From the IMG/VR virus record IMGVR_UViG_3300025112_000155, positions 1 to 26,422 of that record: 26,422 nt of DNA; one strand, given 5' to 3'. The notes under the pieces are model-generated. The model was not told the origin of the DNA, made no database searches, and saw only the letters and a program-made list of their open reading frames with translations. The stretch comes from a virus. This document shows positions 907-9,417 of the stretch, in pieces (the stretch's first letter is position 1; every line of letters begins with the position of its first letter). A program made the translations under genes and the position numbers.

Positions 907-1338
907 ATGGGAAGACCGCACAAAGAGATCGATTATGAGCTGGCGTATAGGCTGGCGCGCATCCACTGCACCAATGAGGAGATCGCCGCTTGCCTGGGTG
1001 TATCTAGAGCACACTGGTACACTCTGATCAAAAACGATGCTGAGTTGGCCAACGCAGTTGAAAACGCGCGCGGCGAGGGCCGCGCATCGCTCCGCCGGCT
1101 CCAGTGGCAAAATGCGACAGAGGGAAATGTCACTATGCAAATTTGGTTAGGCAAACAGATTCTGTCTCAAAATGATATTTCGCGAAATGAGATTACTGGG
1201 AAGGGTGGCAATGCAATCAGGATCGAAGAAGACGCCGCTGCCGCACGCGAAGTTATCGAGGCTGCAATCCTTCGCGCAACTACCCGAAACAGAGAGGGAC
1301 AGTCTCATATCGAGACTGACACCGACACAGCTCATTGA
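907..1338 (+). CDS. terS: Terminase small subunit-like DNA-binding protein
   Basis: This 143-residue protein begins MGRPHKEID and has a helix-turn-helix at roughly residues 12-45 (TNEEIAACLGVSRAHWYTLI). It then has the helical stretch LRRLQWQNATEGNVTMQIWLGKQ cut short here as a K-Q rich helix, a layout typical of phage small terminases that recognise the packaging site. Its position directly before the large terminase supports the call. The last 128 nt overlap the start of the large terminase gene in a different frame. The C-terminal tail is poorly structured and ends HIETDTDTAH; part of it is written by a copy of the dispersed palindrome (1301-1317). Recognition of the pac or cos site is inferred from family and context. 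Confidence 0.75.
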   Translation: MGRPHKEIDYELAYRLARIHCTNEEIAACLGVSRAHWYTLIKNDAELANAVENARGEGRASLRRLQWQNATEGNVTMQIWLGKQILSQNDISRNEITGKGGNAIRIEEDAAAAREVIEAAILRATTRNREGQSHIETDTDTAH

Positions 1339-2575
1339 CCTAAAATGGGATTGGCGGTTTTGGGCTCGACCTGAGCAGTTACCTCCGCCGGGTGATTGGC
1401 GCGTGTGGCTCATTTTGGCCGGTCGCGGTTTTGGCAAAACGAGAACGGGCGCAGAATGGATCCGCGAGCGTGTCAATTTGGGACAAGCCAAACGGATCGC
1501 CCTCGTAGGCAGGACCGCAGCAGACGTGCGTGATGTCATGGTGACCGGTCAGAGTGGAATCCTAAATTGCTACCCCCCCGATCGACGTCCTTTGTATGAG
1601 CCCTCGAAGCGTCGCATCACTTTTCACAATGGAGCTGTCGCAATATGCTACTCCTCAGAAAAACCAGACCAGCTCCGAGGACCACAGCACGATACAGTAT
1701 GGGCTGACGAGTCAGCAGCGTGGGCATACCCCTATCAGACGTGGGACCAATTGATGTTCGGTCTCAGATTGGGAATCACCCCGCGCTGTGTTGTGACAAC
1801 GACCCCCCGTCCCATTCAGCTAATCAAGGATTTGGTCAGTAGCAAAACGACACACGTGACTAGAGGCAGCACATTCGCAAATCGAGACAACCTAGCTCCT
1901 GCGTTCCTAGAGCAGATCCTCGACAAGTACGCAGGCACAAGTCTTGGAATGCAGGAAATCCATGCGCAGCTCTTGGAGGAGGTACCGGGTGCGCTGTGGA
2001 CTAGAGCCATCATAGACGACCACCGAGTACATCAACCACCTCGTGTCCTAAAACGAGTCGTCGTTGCCGTCGATCCTGCTGTGTCTCAATCTGCGACAAG
2101 CGATGAGACGGGAATTGTAGTCGCGGGGCTCGGGGACGATGGTGACTTCTACGTTATGGAAGACGCATCGATGAGAACCAGCGTTGACCAGTGGGCCCGC
2201 GCTGTAGTGTTTCGCTACAAGATGCACAAGGCAGATCGCATTGTCGCAGAATCGAACCAGGGTGGGGATCTGGTCGATCGCATTTTGCGACAAGTCGACG
2301 ACAGCGTGTGTGTCAAACTGATACACGCATCTAAGGGGAAATACTCGCGTGCTGAACCTGTCGCAAGTCGATACGAGCAAGGTCGTGTGCATCATATTGG
2401 GATTCACCGGGAGCTTGAAGATCAGCTCTGTAGCTACTCTCCCGAGTTCACAAAGAAAAGCCCTGATAGACTGGATGCACTCGTCTATGCCATCACTGAG
2501 CTTGACGCAAAACGAGTCATAGACGTGCGTATCGATGCAAACGCAAACCTGAAATCAGAGAGCTGGGAGTTGTGA
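1211..2575 (+). CDS. terL: Terminase large subunit (packaging ATPase and nuclease)
   Basis: This protein of about 454 residues drives DNA into the prohead and cuts concatemers. The ATPase domain shows Walker A GRGFGKT at about residues 71-77, a Walker B-like TVWADE, and the coupling motif VVTTTPRP. The C-terminal RNase H-like nuclease domain shows VVAVDPAVS, then IVAESNQGG, then a late aspartate in SPDRLDALVYA. The segment WRFWARPEQLPPPGDW before Walker A is characteristic of this terminase family. I chose ATG 1211 because GGGAAGGGTGG lies just upstream; ATG 1172 is also open but has no clear ribosome site. Family-like sequence (FAQLPETERD) is already present inside the overlap with terS, so the overlap seems real. 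The stop codon overlaps the next ATG as TGATG. Confidence 0.92.
   Translation: MQSGSKKTPLPHAKLSRLQSFAQLPETERDSLISRLTPTQLIDLKWDWRFWARPEQLPPPGDWRVWLILAGRGFGKTRTGAEWIRERVNLGQAKRIALVGRTAADVRDVMVTGQSGILNCYPPDRRPLYEPSKRRITFHNGAVAICYSSEKPDQLRGPQHDTVWADESAAWAYPYQTWDQLMFGLRLGITPRCVVTTTPRPIQLIKDLVSSKTTHVTRGSTFANRDNLAPAFLEQILDKYAGTSLGMQEIHAQLLEEVPGALWTRAIIDDHRVHQPPRVLKRVVVAVDPAVSQSATSDETGIVVAGLGDDGDFYVMEDASMRTSVDQWARAVVFRYKMHKADRIVAESNQGGDLVDRILRQVDDSVCVKLIHASKGKYSRAEPVASRYEQGRVHHIGIHRELEDQLCSYSPEFTKKSPDRLDALVYAITELDAKRVIDVRIDANANLKSESWEL
1301..1317. repeat. Copy of dispersed palindrome inside the terS/terL overlap
   Basis: AGTCTCATATCGAGACT has 6-bp perfect arms around a 5-nt centre. It lies in DNA read in two frames, by terS and terL. 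Confidence 0.6.
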
Positions 2576-2611: not shown

Positions 2612-2769
2612 GTGAGACAGAGCGACACCAAGAGAGTCCCATTCCGAGAATGAGACAGGTCTCAAAATGGGAATCGAGGGGCGCGCGAAAATTGCAAAAA
2701 AACGAAGTTGGGGGCGTTAATAAACTGCCATGCAGACTGAGCAAAAAATATTCCGAGGTTGAGCTGTAA
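2575..2769 (+). CDS. Small hypothetical ORF in repeat-rich insert; doubtful gene
   Basis: This is a 64-residue open frame starting at an ATG that overlaps the terL stop. Its first twelve residues (MCVSISEWDRSQ) match those of the next gene (MCVSISEWDKSQ), because the DNA around both starts is a direct repeat. The rest is basic and Ser/Arg/Gln-rich, and much of it is simply translation of clustered palindromic motifs. I recognise no domain. It may be a by-product of an insertion of repeats that duplicated the Mu-F start region, or a short leader whose translation couples terL to the following gene: it ends TAATG on the next start. I give low confidence that its peptide has a function. Confidence 0.35.
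   Translation: MCVSISEWDRSQSETERHQESPIPRMRQVSKWESRGARKLQKNEVGGVNKLPCRLSKKYSEVEL
2588..2649. repeat. 14-bp perfect inverted repeat enclosing palindrome copies
   Basis: TCTCGGAATGGGAC at 2588-2601 is the exact reverse complement of GTCCCATTCCGAGA at 2636-2649, with 34 nt between. The loop holds a further half-matching copy (ATCCCAAAGTGAGAC). The transcript could form a strong hairpin between the terL and Mu-F genes. Confidence 0.85.
2651..2664. repeat. Short perfect palindrome TGAGACAGGTCTCA
   Basis: Two facing half-sites, TGAGAC and GTCTCA, are separated by AG and adjoin the 14-bp inverted repeat. This is the inverse arrangement of the usual motif (arms outward), as expected where two full motifs abut. 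Confidence 0.75.
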
Positions 2770-2805
2770 TGTGTGTATCAATCTCAGAATGGGACAAATC
2801 CCAAA
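2761..2805. repeat. Direct repeat, copy B (start-codon leader)
   Basis: This is the partner of 2567-2611. It carries the TAATG junction and the actual start of the Mu-F-like gene. Confidence 0.8.
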
Positions 2806-3698
2806 ATAGGATTCTCAAGGTCGAGGAAATAAGGGCTGATGATTTTGATGGGGCCACACGACGCGAAGCTAGAAAGATAGAGGCGCGCGCTGTCTCATTA
2901 TCGAGCGCCGTCCGCGCCTATCTCAAAGTGAGAACGAGAAAGCTCGTGCGGGAATTGACCGGAGAAATCAAAGAGACTGGCAAAGTTCTCAGATTGCGAA
3001 AAGCCAAACGCATGAGCAAGGAGCAGAAGCGCTTGCTAAAACTCCTTTCATATTACGGACTTAGGCAGATCACCGATAGTGGCAAAGAGCTAGCCGGGTC
3101 TGAGTGGGTTGTCCCAAATACGTACATAAGCGATTACTTGTCTCAAAAAGAGATTCTGATTCAGCAGCTAGATGCGAATCTGGAGAAGGAATTTCGGGGC
3201 GCAGTCGGGCGAGCGCTTGCTGATTGGATGCAAGAAACTCCCCGTCCCACAATAGGACAAATCTCAGAACGACTCAGAAGCTGGCTCACGGTAGAATCCC
3301 AAAAAGGAGCACCGTACAAATTGAAGCCACTAGGAAATAGGTTTACGGTCGAGGGGCTAGGAGCTAGAGCTAGGATGATTGCACGCACCGAGATAAACGC
3401 CGCTAGGAATTACGGGCGAGTCGAGGCGGGCAAGCTGATAGGGCGGGAATATTTGATTTGGATTGCATCGGACGATGGCAAATCAGGACGAAGACAGCAC
3501 AATAAAATGGACGGTCTCATTGTGAGACAAGGAAAGTTTTTCAAAAATCCCAGAACAGGAGCCCGGTTGAGGTATCCTGGTGACCCCGGCGCGCGGAGCA
3601 AATTTGGGGTTGCTGGTGAAGTGATAAATTGCCGATGTAGTGCCCGTCCCATTTCGGCACAAATGGCAGAGAGACTAAAAGGTGGTATCAATGTCTGA
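2769..3698 (+). CDS. Mu-F-like / SPP1 gp7-like minor head protein
   Basis: This 309-residue protein shows the conserved C-terminal pattern of the phage Mu F family (PF04233-like). ARMIARTEINAARNYGRVEAG is followed by a histidine/asparagine segment (GRRQHNKMDG) and by the closing NCRCSARPI. The N-terminal half is helical and basic. Family members are minor head proteins beside the portal, thought to be carried into the capsid with DNA or to assist portal assembly. The gene overlaps the portal start by 8 nt (ATGTCTGA). Several palindrome copies lie inside it (2921-2933, 3140-3154, 3514-3528); one encodes SQKEI. The first twelve residues duplicate the start of the preceding small frame. In Mu-like phages this gene usually follows the portal; here it precedes it. 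Confidence 0.85.
   Translation: MCVSISEWDKSQNRILKVEEIRADDFDGATRREARKIEARAVSLSSAVRAYLKVRTRKLVRELTGEIKETGKVLRLRKAKRMSKEQKRLLKLLSYYGLRQITDSGKELAGSEWVVPNTYISDYLSQKEILIQQLDANLEKEFRGAVGRALADWMQETPRPTIGQISERLRSWLTVESQKGAPYKLKPLGNRFTVEGLGARARMIARTEINAARNYGRVEAGKLIGREYLIWIASDDGKSGRRQHNKMDGLIVRQGKFFKNPRTGARLRYPGDPGARSKFGVAGEVINCRCSARPISAQMAERLKGGINV
3514..3528. repeat. Near-consensus copy of the dispersed palindrome
   Basis: GTCTCATTGTGAGAC has perfect 6-bp arms around a 3-nt centre, inside the Mu-F-like gene. It is one of the best full-length copies. Confidence 0.8.
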
Positions 3699-5373
3699 AA
3701 ATGAGATTAACGGTAAGTATGATTTTCTCGATGTTCTGGGCTCGACTGGTCTAAACAGGCAAGCAGGGCAGATTGATGAAGAGTGGCTCAAACAACTCCA
3801 AGGGGAGAAGGGTCAGAAAATCTTCACCGAGATGCGCGACAACGACCCGGTTGTAGGCGCGATTCTCTACGCAATCAAAACACTCGTAAGACAGACCAAA
3901 TCCCAAATTAATACAGCGAGCGATGACCCAGTCGCAAAAGAGTACGCGGCTTTTGTCGAGGAATGTATCGAGGACATGTCAGTGACTTGGCCTGATTTCC
4001 TGGCTGAAGTCCTGTCGTTCCTTCCCTTCGGCTGGTCCTATTTTGAGATTCTCTACAAGGTTCGTAGGGGGCACAACGACGATCCCAAATTGAGTAGCTC
4101 ATACGATGATGGTCGGGTCGGTTGGCGCAAGTTCGGGGTGCGCTCGCAAGATACACTCTTCAAATGGGAGTTCGATGATGAGGGCGGTTTGCGAGGGCTT
4201 TGGCAAATGGCCCCGCCTACCTTCGAGCAGGTCTACATCCCATTAGAGAAGGCGTTGCATTTTCGGACTGAGACACACAAGAACAATCCCGAGGGGCGTA
4301 GCATTTTGAGAAACGCCTACCGCTCCTGGTATTTTCTCAAAAGGATACAGGGCGTAGAGGCTGTGGGCGTCGAGCGTGATCTTGCAGGGTTGCCGGTAAT
4401 GCAGGTGCCTGTTGAGCTTTTAGCCTCAAACGCCACCAGCTCTCAAAAGGCTGTCGTTGACGACTTTCGCGATATGATACAGAAGATCCGGCGCGACGAA
4501 TACGAAGGGATCGTCATCCCGTCCGAAACTGACATGGACGGAAACCCCACCGGTTTCAAATTGAGTCTGCTCAGTTCGGGAGGTAGACGCCCGCTAGACG
4601 TTGACCAGATCATCAAGCGTTATGAAAGCCGTGTCGCATTATCGGTCTTAGGCGAGTTCGTTCTCTTAGGTCTCGACGGGGTCGGATCGTTCGCTCTGTC
4701 GAGTAGCAAAACGGCACTCTTTGCGCAGGCGCTCGGGGTGTACCTGCAATCGATCGCGTCGGTGTTTAACGAGCAAGCGATCCCTAGACTCATGAGGCTA
4801 AACGGCTGGAACCAGGTAGAGCATTATCCCAGTTTGTCATTTTCCGATATTGAGACACCAGACGTCCAAGAGATATCAACCGCACTCACCGGGCTAGTCG
4901 GGGCGGGTATCATCACGCCTGATGATGAGCTTGAATCTTGGGTGCGCGATTTTGCGAATCTCCCATCGTCCGATTCTGCGACAGCTCGACGGGATGTTGT
5001 GGATGAGGCTCTCTACGACGAACAGATTCTGCCTCAAGATGAGACAGTCCGAGAGGCTCCTGAACTAGACGAGTCCCAGGATGAGACTGAGACAGAATCC
5101 GAAGTTGAGACAGAGGGAATCGAGACAACCGCAGAAGTACCGGTTGCAGCGGTCACGCTCAACGGGGCTCAGGTTTCATCGCTTCTCGAAATCATACAGA
5201 GCGTTTCGACGGGGCTTCTCCCTAGAGACACAGCTCTCCAGATCATATCAATGGCATTCAACTTGAGTACAGAAAAGGCTGATCTCGTTTTGGGATCGGT
5301 AGGTCGAGGGTTCGAGCCTGATCCCGAAACTGAGACAATCACCGTAGAGGAAAGCGAGCGCACTGATGGCTGA
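3691..5373 (+). CDS. Portal protein, DUF935/Mu gp29-like
   Basis: This protein of about 560 residues forms the dodecameric portal ring at one capsid vertex. The body matches the DUF935-type portal pattern: an early IFTEMRDNDPVVGAILYAIK, then FLPFGWSYFEILYK, a tryptophan-rich wing, the helix GVERDLAGLPVMQVP, and VLGEFVLLGLDG followed by FALSSSKTALF. I chose ATG 3691, after GGTGG and overlapping the upstream stop, rather than GTG 3682. The C-terminal 150 residues are different: an acidic, low-complexity linker full of Thr/Glu (SQDETETESEVETE) encoded partly by palindrome copies, then a short helical segment. It overlaps the next gene by 8 nt (ATGGCTGA). Confidence 0.88.
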   Translation: MSENEINGKYDFLDVLGSTGLNRQAGQIDEEWLKQLQGEKGQKIFTEMRDNDPVVGAILYAIKTLVRQTKSQINTASDDPVAKEYAAFVEECIEDMSVTWPDFLAEVLSFLPFGWSYFEILYKVRRGHNDDPKLSSSYDDGRVGWRKFGVRSQDTLFKWEFDDEGGLRGLWQMAPPTFEQVYIPLEKALHFRTETHKNNPEGRSILRNAYRSWYFLKRIQGVEAVGVERDLAGLPVMQVPVELLASNATSSQKAVVDDFRDMIQKIRRDEYEGIVIPSETDMDGNPTGFKLSLLSSGGRRPLDVDQIIKRYESRVALSVLGEFVLLGLDGVGSFALSSSKTALFAQALGVYLQSIASVFNEQAIPRLMRLNGWNQVEHYPSLSFSDIETPDVQEISTALTGLVGAGIITPDDELESWVRDFANLPSSDSATARRDVVDEALYDEQILPQDETVREAPELDESQDETETESEVETEGIETTAEVPVAAVTLNGAQVSSLLEIIQSVSTGLLPRDTALQIISMAFNLSTEKADLVLGSVGRGFEPDPETETITVEESERTDG

Positions 5374-7000
5374 TACTAAAGCTGAGGCAATCGACAAAGA
5401 AAGCTACCCGTGGAAAACCTGCATACGAGACCAGGTCAAGGCGGGTCATTCTGAGAAATCTGCTGAGAAGATCTGCGGCTCTATCTATTGGGAGTATGGG
5501 CCCGGCAGCAAATCCCAATTTGCGAAACACGAGGACCGTACAGCAGAATGGGGCAGAGTCTACAACGCGGTGCTGAGGGAGACAGGCGACGCGGAGCTAG
5601 CGTCTCAAGTTGCGACAGACAGGACAGGCTTAGACGAGGGATCTCAAACTGAGACAGTCGAAGTCTCGCAAGTACCTAAAATCATTGCGCTTTTAGCTTT
5701 GTCTCAAATTAGGCCGGCGGTCTTGTCTCAAACTGAGAACAAGGAACTGGTGGATATTTGGGATTATTTGCGCTCTGCGTTTTCGCAATTCAAGACAGAC
5801 CCCATGATGAGAGGGCGGATTGTTGCCGCAGCGTCTCGGGCTGTTGAGGAGATCCAGAACCGGAAGCTAGAGCTAGATCCGTCAGAGCTGCACAGAGAAG
5901 CACAGCGGCTCATAGACACTCTACGTCATCAACTCGCGTCTCTAAATAAGACAGGCGTCCCAATTTGGAACGCAGGCGCTCCGGTGGTTTTTGTGGTCTC
6001 CGAGGCCAATGAGATTGATAAGGCGCGGGGGGAATTTTTGTCAGGCCCGGACGGTAGAACCTTCCAAGACCTGTATCTCAACCGTCTCAAATTGCGAAAA
6101 TCTGAGGTCTGTATTTTGGATGTTTCGCAGGTCGAGTGGCTAGAGAAAGCTGATCCTATCGCAGTTATCGCCCTAGGCAGAACAGCCAAGAAAGTGTTGT
6201 TAGATGTCGCAATTTGCAACTTGCCGCATCCCAAAGCTGTAAGGCGTTTCGGGGATAGTGGCGAAGTTGGGCGGAAACTAAAGGCAGTCTCGAAACGACT
6301 CACGTCTCATATTGAGAATTTAAGCCTTGACGCTATGACCACAAATGAGCGACAATCATCAACTGAAGACTGCAACAGTGCAAGCACGCGATCAGGACCG
6401 ATTGATAAGTCCGAAAATGAGACGCCTGCACAGGTTGACGACGTTGGCTCAGAGCCCGATTCGCAGATTGAGACGCGGGGGGACGAGAGGCAGGATATTG
6501 ATTCTGGAACGTCTGAAGCTCAAGATCTGTCTAAGTCGTTGACGGTGCCGATTGCCAAGGCCGACTCGGAGAAAAAGATTGTATATGGAATCGTTCTCGA
6601 TCCGTATCAAATCGATGCACAAGAAGATTGGTGTTCTCCCAAAGCGATAGAAGAGACAGCGCACGAGTGGCTTTCAAAAAGTCGCATTATAGGATTCGAC
6701 CATACAGCCAAGGCTGATGCGTACCCGGTCGAGTCATCGATAATCCCGTACCCAAGTGCTGAGGATTATCAAAATGCGATGGATTGTAAACCGCACCGCG
6801 CCTACAGGATGCCCTTCGGAGACGACGTAGTGCATTCAGGTAGTTGGGTTTTGGGAACGAAGCTCGGTGACTCAGAATGGGACAAGGTGAAAAAGGGCAA
6901 GCTCAACGCTTATTCTATCGGCGGCTACGGCAGGCGAGAACCTATGTCCAAAAATGAGATGCCTAAAGTTGAGTTCGTAGAGTTAACAGAGGATCAATAG
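5366..7000 (+). CDS. Multidomain prohead protease: UDG-like domain fused to XkdF-type serine protease
   Basis: This 544-residue protein has distinct parts. Residues 14-44 (YPWKTCIRDQ ... AEKICGSIYWEYG) form a small Cys-containing module, followed by a helical segment (WGRVYNAVLRETGD) resembling phage ChaB-like pieces. Residues about 198-315 resemble uracil-DNA glycosylase: VVFVVSEANEIDKARGEF, then SGPDGRTFQDL, then VIALGRTAKKVLL, then a late PHPKAVRRFGDSGE that fits the HPS-type motif. The iron-sulfur cysteines of family 4 enzymes are not obvious. An acidic linker (320-400) leads to a XkdF-like protease (402-530): VYGIVLDPYQIDAQ, FDH at 444-446, GSWVLGTKL, and AYSIGG with the likely nucleophile Ser517. 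The protease presumably matures the prohead. Glycosylase activity is inference only. The frame ends at TAG and the scaffold continues in the same frame. Confidence 0.8.
   Translation: MADTKAEAIDKESYPWKTCIRDQVKAGHSEKSAEKICGSIYWEYGPGSKSQFAKHEDRTAEWGRVYNAVLRETGDAELASQVATDRTGLDEGSQTETVEVSQVPKIIALLALSQIRPAVLSQTENKELVDIWDYLRSAFSQFKTDPMMRGRIVAAASRAVEEIQNRKLELDPSELHREAQRLIDTLRHQLASLNKTGVPIWNAGAPVVFVVSEANEIDKARGEFLSGPDGRTFQDLYLNRLKLRKSEVCILDVSQVEWLEKADPIAVIALGRTAKKVLLDVAICNLPHPKAVRRFGDSGEVGRKLKAVSKRLTSHIENLSLDAMTTNERQSSTEDCNSASTRSGPIDKSENETPAQVDDVGSEPDSQIETRGDERQDIDSGTSEAQDLSKSLTVPIAKADSEKKIVYGIVLDPYQIDAQEDWCSPKAIEETAHEWLSKSRIIGFDHTAKADAYPVESSIIPYPSAEDYQNAMDCKPHRAYRMPFGDDVVHSGSWVLGTKLGDSEWDKVKKGKLNAYSIGGYGRREPMSKNEMPKVEFVELTEDQ
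5642..5738. repeat. Three palindrome copies inside the protease gene
   Basis: TCTCAAACTGAGA occurs at 5642-5654 and GTCTCAAACTGAGA at 5725-5738, with a half copy (GTCTCAAATTAGG) between at about 5701. They encode SQTET, SQTEN and SQIRP in one frame. The protein region is a linker between recognisable domains. Confidence 0.75.
6304..6317. repeat. Copy of dispersed palindrome after the UDG-like domain
   Basis: GTCTCATATTGAGA lies at the boundary between the UDG-like domain and the acidic linker. Confidence 0.65.
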
Positions 7001-8053
7001 ATGCCGATAACGGCGCTAACAGATTTGGAAACCGTCGAGGTGAGTTTGGTTCCGGCTGGAGCGAATCTCAAAAAGCGATTTCCCATAATGAAACGAGACG
7101 AGGATAGTTCGATGTCAGATATTCTTCATGCAGTCATTGACGCTCAAACAAGCGACGAATCTCATTTTGACAAAGTCGCAAAATCAGCAAACCTCTCTGA
7201 AGAAGCAGCCGCAGCCGTTAAAGGCGCGATGAAAATTCTCAATGCTTATTCAGACATGATCCCCGCAGAGCAAGCGTTGGCGGTGGTTTCCGAAGGTTTG
7301 GGTGTAAAGAAAGCTACAGAGTTCGAGCGAGGCAAAGAGTCCGAAGGTGCGAAACTTTCCGACGAAGAAAAAGACGAAGAAGACGAAGAGGTCAAAGAGC
7401 TTTCCGAGATGATCACTGAGTCCGAAAAAGCGACAGAGTTCGAAGAAGGTAAAGAGTCAGAAGGCACCACCATTGCTGACGAAGAAGAGGACGCCAAAAA
7501 GGCTGATGAGGATGAAGAGGAAGACGAAGAGAAAGCGGAGAAGGCTAGTCCCAATTCGCTACAGAAATCTCTCGAAGCTCTCGATCCTGCTGTCCGAGAT
7601 CAAGTCACGGCTCTTTGGAAGTCTCAAAAAGAAGCAGTCGCAAAAGCGGACAAGCTCGAAAAGTCTTTAGCCAAAGAGCGAGACGAACGACTCCGAAAAG
7701 AGTTCGTTACCAAGGCCCAGAACGAGTTTCGTTTTGTGCCTGGCAAATCACCCGAGGAACTTGGATTGATGCTCAAGTCGCTTTACGCGATGGATTCTCA
7801 AATTGCGAAAGACATTGAAGGTATCTTCAAGTCTGTAAGCGCGATGGTTGAGAAGGGCGATCTGCTTGATGAACTCGGTTCAAGTATGACTGGCGAGGCT
7901 ACCAGCGGGAGCGCTTACAGCAAGCTGGACAATATCGCAAAAACACGCGTGTCAAAATCGGACGAGTCCTACGCCAAAGCCTTTGAGGCTGCGATGAAGG
8001 CTAACCCTGATCTCTACACAGCGTATCTTAACGAACAAGCCAACCAGGGATAA
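7001..8053 (+). CDS. Head scaffold protein, continuation of the XkdF protease frame
   Basis: This 350-residue protein starts directly after the TAG of the protease gene, in the same frame. Its first residues (LTDLETVEVSLVPAGANLKKRF) resemble the segment that in XkdF-type proteins follows the protease domain within a single chain, so the two genes look like one ancestral protease-scaffold split by a stop. AGAGGA seven to eight nt upstream of the ATG supports separate initiation. The middle is strongly acidic (Glu/Asp runs, residues about 110-185) and contains a duplicated unit, KATEFE-x-GKESEG. A charged coiled-coil-like helix follows (about 205-240). Acidic helical proteins between protease and capsid genes are typical scaffolds that guide capsid assembly and are then degraded. 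Confidence 0.78.
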   Translation: MPITALTDLETVEVSLVPAGANLKKRFPIMKRDEDSSMSDILHAVIDAQTSDESHFDKVAKSANLSEEAAAAVKGAMKILNAYSDMIPAEQALAVVSEGLGVKKATEFERGKESEGAKLSDEEKDEEDEEVKELSEMITESEKATEFEEGKESEGTTIADEEEDAKKADEDEEEDEEKAEKASPNSLQKSLEALDPAVRDQVTALWKSQKEAVAKADKLEKSLAKERDERLRKEFVTKAQNEFRFVPGKSPEELGLMLKSLYAMDSQIAKDIEGIFKSVSAMVEKGDLLDELGSSMTGEATSGSAYSKLDNIAKTRVSKSDESYAKAFEAAMKANPDLYTAYLNEQANQG

Positions 8054-8067
8054 GGAGTCTCAAAATG
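8051..8067 (+). promoter_or_regulatory. Ribosome site with palindrome as spacer and start
   Basis: GGAG at 8054-8057 is followed by TCTCAAAATG. The left half of the dispersed palindrome forms the spacer and its AATG supplies the start codon of the decoration gene. Confidence 0.75.
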
Positions 8068-8439
8068 GCATTCTCAGAAAATATGCAGACGATTAGCTTA
8101 GTTGCTGGGGAGGATCTCTCGTCTAGTCAATACTACTTTGTAGCCGTCGATTCGAGCGGACAGGCAGTACTGACTGGCGACGATGGTAACCCCGTTGGCG
8201 TTGTACAAAACAAGCCCGAGTCGGGCCAGGCGGCTACCATCTGCGTTTATGGTATCTCCAAGCTCTACATCGGAACAGCAGCAGGTCTCGGGACAGGCTA
8301 CAACGTAGGCTGTGATTCCAATTCCGCCGGTAAGGTATCTGATACCGGGTCATTTCGAATGGGGGTTGCGCTAGAAGATCCCACCACTGATGGGGACATC
8401 GTCGCCGTCCTTATCCAGAAAAACGGTAAGCAGGCGTAA
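8065..8439 (+). CDS. Capsid decoration/cement protein, DUF2190-like
   Basis: This 124-residue beta-rich protein has the pattern of DUF2190-type capsid cement proteins: an early AGEDLSSSQYYFVAVDSSGQAV, a middle GVVQNKPESGQAATICVYG, and a closing RMGVALEDPTTDGDIVAVLI. Such proteins are related to the lambda gpD fold and trim the capsid surface to stabilise it. Its position immediately before the major capsid gene is the normal one for phages with a cement protein. Start is set by GGAG and the palindrome-derived spacer. Confidence 0.85.
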   Translation: MAFSENMQTISLVAGEDLSSSQYYFVAVDSSGQAVLTGDDGNPVGVVQNKPESGQAATICVYGISKLYIGTAAGLGTGYNVGCDSNSAGKVSDTGSFRMGVALEDPTTDGDIVAVLIQKNGKQA

Positions 8440-8440
8440 A

Positions 8441-8454
8441 GGAGTCTCAAAATG
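8441..8454 (+). promoter_or_regulatory. Ribosome site with palindrome as spacer and start
   Basis: GGAGTCTCAAAATG precedes and includes the capsid gene start, identical over these 14 bases to the site of the preceding gene. Confidence 0.75.
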
Positions 8455-9417
8455 CCAAATCCAACTAGATCAGATGTGCATGTAAACGCACCTTTGACGA
8501 ACGTCTCAATTGCCTATTTGCAAGATGAGACAAAATTCGTCAGCAATCAGTGCTTCCCAACTTTGGGCGTGCCTAAGCAAAGTGATCTCTATTTTCAATA
8601 TAGTCAAGGGGACTTCCTCAGATCAGAGGCGCAGATGCGCGCCCCTGGTACGGAGTCAGCGGGTGCAGGTTACAACCTGACTACCGCGTCCTATTCTGCG
8701 AATGTTCTGGCTCTGCACAAAGATGTTGCAGATCAAATCAGAGCCAACGCAGATGCGCCGCTCAACATGGATTCAGACGCTACAAAGTTTCTGACTCAAC
8801 AGATGTTGATCAAGCGGGATCTCGACTGGGCAGCCAGCTTTTTTAGCGGCGGATCCTGGACCGGTTCAACAACCGGATCTGACATCACACCAGGAACAAA
8901 ATGGGATGCTAGCGGTGCAACTCCGATCGAGGACATCGATGCTCAGGCAAACTCGGTCGAAGCTAAGACTGGTTTCAAACCAAACATTCTCGTTTTGGGA
9001 ATCGACGCCTTCACAGCCCTAAAAAATAGTGCTGATGTCGTTGACCGAATTCGCTACACACAGACAGGTGTAGTGACTGAGGATATCTTGGCTAGTCTCC
9101 TTGGAGTTGAGAAGGTTGTTGTGGCTCGTGCTGTCTACAACTCCGCACTCGAAGGGGCAACTGATAGTATCAGCAGAATCTACACAGGTGACACGGCTCT
9201 CTTGCTTTATCGCCCTACGTCCCCGTCATTGATGCATCCTTCAGCAGGATACACTTTTGCATGGACTGGGTACCAAGGAGCAGGGCCAGACGGTCAGCGT
9301 GTGTCTCGTTTTCGGATGGATCACCTTCGTAGTGACCGTATCGAAATGGAAATGGCGTATGACCAAAAGCAGGTTTCAACTGTTCTTGGTGCGCGTTTCG
9401 TTACAGTGGACACTTGA
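8452..9417 (+). CDS. Major capsid protein (HK97-fold type)
   Basis: This 321-residue protein has the length and order expected of a major head protein. An N-terminal VNAPLTNVSIAYLQ leads to FPTLGVPKQSDLYFQY, a helical spine (DLDWAASFFSG), the segment FKPNILVLGIDAFTALKN, then ILASLLGVEKVVVARAVYN. The C-terminus reads RFRMDHLRSDRIEMEMAYDQ, a strand-rich finish typical of this capsid group. It follows protease, scaffold and cement genes, which supports the call. No long N-terminal delta domain is present, consistent with a separate scaffold gene. Confidence 0.88.
   Translation: MPNPTRSDVHVNAPLTNVSIAYLQDETKFVSNQCFPTLGVPKQSDLYFQYSQGDFLRSEAQMRAPGTESAGAGYNLTTASYSANVLALHKDVADQIRANADAPLNMDSDATKFLTQQMLIKRDLDWAASFFSGGSWTGSTTGSDITPGTKWDASGATPIEDIDAQANSVEAKTGFKPNILVLGIDAFTALKNSADVVDRIRYTQTGVVTEDILASLLGVEKVVVARAVYNSALEGATDSISRIYTGDTALLLYRPTSPSLMHPSAGYTFAWTGYQGAGPDGQRVSRFRMDHLRSDRIEMEMAYDQKQVSTVLGARFVTVDT

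Follow-up and report, generated by a model that had tools for sequence, protein, structure and literature searches.

A uracil-DNA glycosylase-like domain fused to an XkdF-type prohead protease in a family of viral head-gene proteins

The fusion gene and its neighbours

The window analysed here (the whole 26,422-nucleotide stretch of virus record IMGVR_UViG_3300025112_000155) carries, in order, a DNA methylase gene (6-899), the small and large terminase subunits (the latter at 1172..2575), a Mu F-like head morphogenesis protein (2769..3698), a Mu-type portal protein (3682..5373, E=2e-33) and a fusion gene (5366..7000), which starts with ATG and encodes a protein of 544 amino acids. On the 3′ side follow a scaffold-like ORF (7001..8053), a cement (decoration) protein (8065..8439), the major capsid protein (8452..9417, E=1e-80) and the tail genes; from the large terminase subunit onwards, every feature given here with coordinates lies on the plus strand. 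The fusion protein begins with an accessory module (residues 9-81; 5390..5608), which varies among relatives and matches positions 238-309 of phrog_24841, a family of unknown function. A helical module, H2 (residues 106-184; 5681..5917; E=1e-10), comes next and is also found in the large polyproteins described below, upstream of their nucleotidyltransferase. It is followed by a uracil-DNA glycosylase (UDG)-fold domain (residues 195-312; 5948..6301), a low-complexity linker (residues 326-391; 6341..6538) and an XkdF/S78_2 protease domain (residues 392-544; 6539..6997).

In the protease half, Pfam Peptidase_S78_2 (PF14550) matches residues 396-523 with E=2.1e-17 (63.7 bits against a curated cut-off of 24), and the protease family profile covers residues 392-537. 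Both protease motifs are present, FDH at 444-446 and AYSIGG at 515-520, and His446 and Ser517, the probable catalytic pair, align with the conserved His and Ser of relatives. XkdF has been proposed as a head-processing peptidase (PMC7824862), and the window protein shares with this family (PF14550, phrog_3017) not only the two motifs but also the position between portal and capsid genes, with the portal upstream and the cement and capsid proteins downstream. The XkdF proteases of isolated phages that we examined start near their own N-terminus, whereas the window protein has 390 residues before its protease and its scaffold-like part forms a separate ORF. Since the isolates lack such an extension, head maturation in general does not depend on it.

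The separate ORF (7001..8053) lies in the same frame as the fusion gene and begins right after its stop codon. It contains MPITALTDLETVEVSLVPAGAN, followed by sequence rich in Asp, Glu and Lys, and phrog_13547 was its sole match. Its start resembles the C-terminal end of a protease domain, which makes protease and scaffold look split over two ORFs; judged from these features, it probably encodes the rest of the protease together with a scaffold. In relatives L002, L004 and L006 these ORFs are not merely adjacent but share 1-4 bases.

Several further observations concern the DNA of this region. The N-terminal part is variable, with further mobile modules in L006, L007 and L014 (KDDPKTPAKPSER..., GVQEEA..RREHGRGGT...), and many isolated phages (Synechococcus S-CBS4, Vibrio, Roseobacter) share the N-terminal stretch of L033. 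Within the linker, dS between the window and L002 is 0.02 against about 0.6 in the flanks, with a dN/dS of 1.8, and the same trend is seen in other sequence pairs. An overlapping gene was rejected as the cause, as no other frame is open in all relatives; recombination or a DNA or RNA element is a possible explanation.

A 13-bp near-palindrome, TCYCANNNTGRGA (fuller form RTCTCAAAWYGAGAC), is dispersed over the whole window and is about 50-fold over-represented (for example at 889, 1303, 1762, 2605, 2660, 2782, 2921, 3515, 5642, 5726, 6305, 12538, 15444 and 23840). Counting both strands, TCYCANNNNGRGA occurs 48 times against 0.9 expected and TCYCANNNTGNGA 34 times against 0.5. It occurs both between genes and within them, there in each of the three codon frames, which implies that it acts at the DNA level, and it is present in the close relatives L002, L006, L007, L004 and L014 but absent from the rest of the family. 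By analogy with stoperators, it may be bound by a DNA-binding protein of the phage or of the host. In the Mu F-like gene of L006 (1851-3248), an N-terminal insertion consists of repeats of the dispersed motif (CTCAATCTGCGAATT...) and is rich in Ser, Gln and Asn.

A UDG fold with an altered active site

The window sequence on its own gives little indication of a glycosylase. Pfam UDG matches it at E=0.19, the single sequence found no UDG in the PDB sequence file, and its searches returned chance matches only in phages and none in bacterial genomes. A degenerate DNA pattern for PHPxAxRxxGDSGE run on IMG/VR recovered 75 contigs, all encoding the UDG-like domain. Two patterns for motif A recovered 25 contigs (20 of them known before) and 18 contigs (17 known before); the others also encode the module and the protease. 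In total the module is found in 81 IMG/VR contigs besides the window. Of 48 modules, 34 match Pfam UDG at E<=0.01, the clearest down to 1e-25, and a long-class consensus query of bacterial genomes found only UDG-like loci (Pseudomonas, Kribbella and others). A profile of the 20 window-class modules alone gave only three matches in the PDB, all of them family-4 UDGs (E 0.014, 0.22 and 0.26); once long-class homologues were included, 4zbx was matched at E=1.9e-18.

Structure prediction leads to the same fold. An AlphaFold2 model of residues 193-329 made from 48 sequences has a mean pLDDT of 89.9 and a pTM of 0.83, compared with a pLDDT of 67 for an earlier model from 6 near-identical sequences. 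It superposes on the Thermus thermophilus family-4 UDG 1ui1 with Z 14.2 and an rmsd of 2.1 Å over 123 residues, followed by 4zbx (Z 13.8), UdgX (about 12) and MUG/TDG (about 10). The best matches are all UDGs, and Foldseek agrees (1l9g, E=5e-7). Together, the clear UDGs among the pattern-found relatives, the window-class profile and the model make the assignment firm: residues 195-312 or thereabouts have a UDG-type fold and are homologous to UDGs, although from one sequence alone this would have been a guess. A preliminary description, made from the window sequence by itself, had proposed just such a domain fused to an XkdF-type protease and had suggested structure prediction of residues 190-320 as a check; the fusion and the fold are both borne out.

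Family 4 UDGs (T. thermophilus 1ui1, S. tokodaii 4zbx) and UdgX resemble the window module over the whole domain (Z 12-14), in motif order and in the His and Arg of motif B. In UdgX, Glu52 of motif A activates the attacking group, Asn91 and His178 hold the uracil and Arg184 of motif B binds the substrate; E52 mutants are impaired (PMC10359453). In the window protein the E52 position is Ser212, within the motif A equivalent VSEAN (211-215; 5996..6010). At the aligned positions family 4 has GEAPG and the long phage class GASPG; neither VSEAN nor GASPG conforms to the family-4 motif GE(A/G)PG. The preliminary description had read this pentad as SEANE, one residue out of register. Asp252 (6119..6121) takes the place of Asn91, and Leu225 (6038..6040) that of the Phe of PFVG. 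Compared with family 4 UDGs and UdgX, the window protein also lacks the stretch that links the Asn to the ALG strand. A set of Fe-S cysteines is absent from every class (0-3 Cys per module among the 48 modules), and the UdgX motifs GEQPG and KRRIH of the R-loop were not found in the window module.

The DNA-binding motif B, PHPKAVRR, is retained in the window protein, with His288 equivalent to His178 and Arg294 to Arg184, and is extended by a family signature, GDSGExxRK, which family 4 UDGs and UdgX do not have (PHPKAVRRFGDSGEVGRK, residues 287-304; 6224..6277). The His, Pro and Arg of motif B and GDxGExxRK are conserved in both classes; the His is present in 48/48 modules, as is Arg or Lys at the Arg position. 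The His belonged to one search pattern, but it is also kept in contigs found without that pattern. We rejected the possibility that GDxGE conservation is an artefact of the search, as the two motif A patterns, which do not include GDSGE, recover the same contigs, and the extra contigs that they add carry GD[S/R/K]GE or GNSGE.

In all 20 compact-class (window-class) modules the Phe position is Leu, the Asn position is never Asn and mostly Asp, and the motif A Glu position is Ser, Glu or Ala (Glu in 6/20), followed by Glu or Lys. The 28 other modules retain Asn in 27 cases and Phe in 21, with Ala or Ser for the motif A Glu. The DNA-contacting portion is thus retained and the portion that cleaves the glycosidic bond altered, and from these alignments the window protein is most likely a pseudo-glycosylase. 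Loss of catalysis may not be uniform across the window class, and the catalytic state of the long class is uncertain. The doubts previously voiced over the active site were well founded, and the accompanying suggestion that the domain acts on uracil in incoming DNA now looks unlikely for the window protein, in which the motif A Glu, the Asn and the Phe are all replaced.

Compact and large forms, and their nearest known counterparts

Segment HMMs built from an alignment of 17 large relatives were run on 71 proteins, and the protease was present in 64/65 scored proteins with an intact 3′ end. Among ORFs complete at both ends, 30 proteins are of a compact kind (one or more helical modules, UDG, protease) and 16 of a large kind, H1-H2, nucleotidyltransferase, ligase, OB, UDG, phosphoesterase-like domain and protease, one of which has no scored OB part; two further complete ORFs have only UDG, phosphoesterase-like domain and protease. 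The large forms span roughly 1000-1500 amino acids, include a variable segment between nucleotidyltransferase and ligase and in some cases add a methyltransferase or metallo-beta-lactamase-type domain. The ATP-dependent ligase is well supported (Pfam E=1e-19, PDB profile E=4e-23), and its lysine is invariant in all 17 large relatives, with KxDG often KxNG. The nucleotidyltransferase has GS...DxD in nearly all, with a weak Pfam match (E=0.008). The phosphoesterase-like domain reaches E=9e-4 at best with Pfam LigD_N, under the curated cut-off, and on this sequence match would be LigD-like rather than LigD. The window protein has none of the ligase, nucleotidyltransferase and phosphoesterase parts.

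On the protease tree the label switches between compact and large about five times, and the compact form is not one clade. Two of the odd rows, L075 (a fragment) and L063 (a long branch), are unsure; the enzymes may have been either lost or gained, and not necessarily in a single reductive event. In the archaeal ANMV-1 virus (L104, 3200-5800), an annotated ATP-dependent DNA ligase matches the large polyproteins, with weak nucleotidyltransferase- and phosphoesterase-like parts, an OB-like part and no UDG or protease match. In a viral structure library, the 892-residue protein A0A516MCN4 matches the UDG model closely (TM 0.80, 30% identity), and at least one deposited virus therefore probably carries the UDG-fold domain unannotated.

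The preliminary description called the fusion unexpected. It is not an isolated case, since the same module occurs in the 81 further viral contigs, many of them with ligase and nucleotidyltransferase, but in the open-access literature it is still unexpected: text searches found no paper that joins XkdF and uracil-DNA glycosylase, and neither a UDG-XkdF nor a ligase-UDG-protease fusion is described there. Two apparent precedents were rejected, the 'DNA methyltransferase' of RHph_I4 (QIG76081), which has 200 amino acids and matches the protease from residue 4, and the UDGs of MTATph1, MT836093 and MT838420, which are not fused to a protease. A UDG fold is also reused within a larger protein in phage DNA polymerases, such as that of phiLo (9qhs), but these are replication enzymes rather than head proteins and the match is weaker (E 4e-3).

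The closest kind of known protein is the polyvalent protein (Iyer et al., 2017, PMC5512222), such as P1 DdrB and the MuF fusions: multidomain proteins with nucleic-acid enzymes, encoded among head genes. They have been proposed to be packaged and injected, the DdrB peptidase domain processing the protein before packaging (PMC5512222). The large relatives likewise combine several enzymatic or nucleic-acid domains in a single polypeptide encoded among virion genes, and the window protein is a compact version. In the window family, however, it is the head maturation protease itself that supplies the peptidase, and searching the text of PMC5512222 for UDG, glycosylase, DNA ligase fusion and XkdF found none of these.

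A proposed role in the virus head

We favour a scheme, to which we would give an even chance, in which the window gene encodes a prohead protease with a UDG-fold DNA-binding module that enters the procapsid, is cut free and is perhaps injected. The fusion protein would be made between the portal and scaffold genes and would be drawn into the procapsid through its protease half; head proteases of the XkdF type act inside the procapsid, and a domain fused upstream would be carried along. During maturation the protease could then cut the variable low-complexity linker, where cleavage between module and protease would be expected and which would be a natural release site. A fragment of some 35-40 kDa would thereby be set free; it would probably remain inside the head, attached to the packaged DNA, and might enter the host with it. 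In the large relatives the same route would supply a set of enzymes for DNA ends and base damage.

The most serious competitor holds that the UDG fold is a protein-protein module that places or times the protease by contacting portal, scaffold or capsid; it would have no functional contact with DNA and would be digested or lost when the head matures. The catalytic residues are gone while the surface is strictly conserved, the module is always beside the protease, and compact forms retain only helical module, UDG and protease, all as expected of an adaptor. Nevertheless, conservation falls on the loop with which UDGs contact DNA (the H178 and R184 positions), with additional Arg and Lys, and in the large relatives DNA enzymes are part of the same polypeptide; we regard a purely structural role as rather unlikely. 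Less probable again is an active enzyme of altered mechanism that would still excise uracil or some other damaged base from phage DNA, whether packaged or incoming. The motif B His is invariant, the long class keeps Asn, usually Phe, and GxSPG, family 5 has GLAPA, without Glu (PMC10359453), so that Glu is not essential in every family, and with ligase, nucleotidyltransferase and phosphoesterase-like domains as partners a repair path would be complete. Against this stand the changes at the motif A, Asn and Phe positions of the window protein, its lack of Fe-S cysteines and the impairment of UdgX E52 mutants (PMC10359453).

Between the window and L002, dN/dS is 0.079 for the UDG domain, 0.075 for the protease and 0.20 for the helical module; these ratios indicate that the UDG-fold domain is under strong purifying selection and is not decaying. 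That it should be a functionless remnant of a former repair polyprotein, as the lost catalytic residues and the absence of a middle segment that the long class has might suggest, is hardly credible, being already contradicted by a dN/dS of 0.08 and by residues invariant in distant contigs, and the compact form recurs.

Returning to the DNA-binding module delivered by its protease, a wider and more tentative version, possible but in our estimation doubtful, would embrace the whole family. The nucleotidyltransferase, ATP-dependent ligase, UDG-fold reader and phosphoesterase-like domain would form one polyprotein with the prohead protease, a capsid repair kit taken into the procapsid, cut free and injected to mend the genome on entry; the window phage would keep only the module that binds damage or ends. 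Phages are known to package effectors.

In conclusion, the family ties DNA-repair enzymes to a head maturation protease, an arrangement in which one gene would provide targeting, release and cargo. This gives a simple rule that can be tested: the part of a polypeptide upstream of an XkdF protease may be capsid cargo. In the window protein, strong selection has continued to act on a glycosylase fold whose catalytic residues have changed and which carries a new conserved motif, GDxGExxRK. The recurrence of the fusion, joined in the larger forms by a DNA ligase and other nucleic-acid enzymes, suggests a DNA-handling module built into the virus head.
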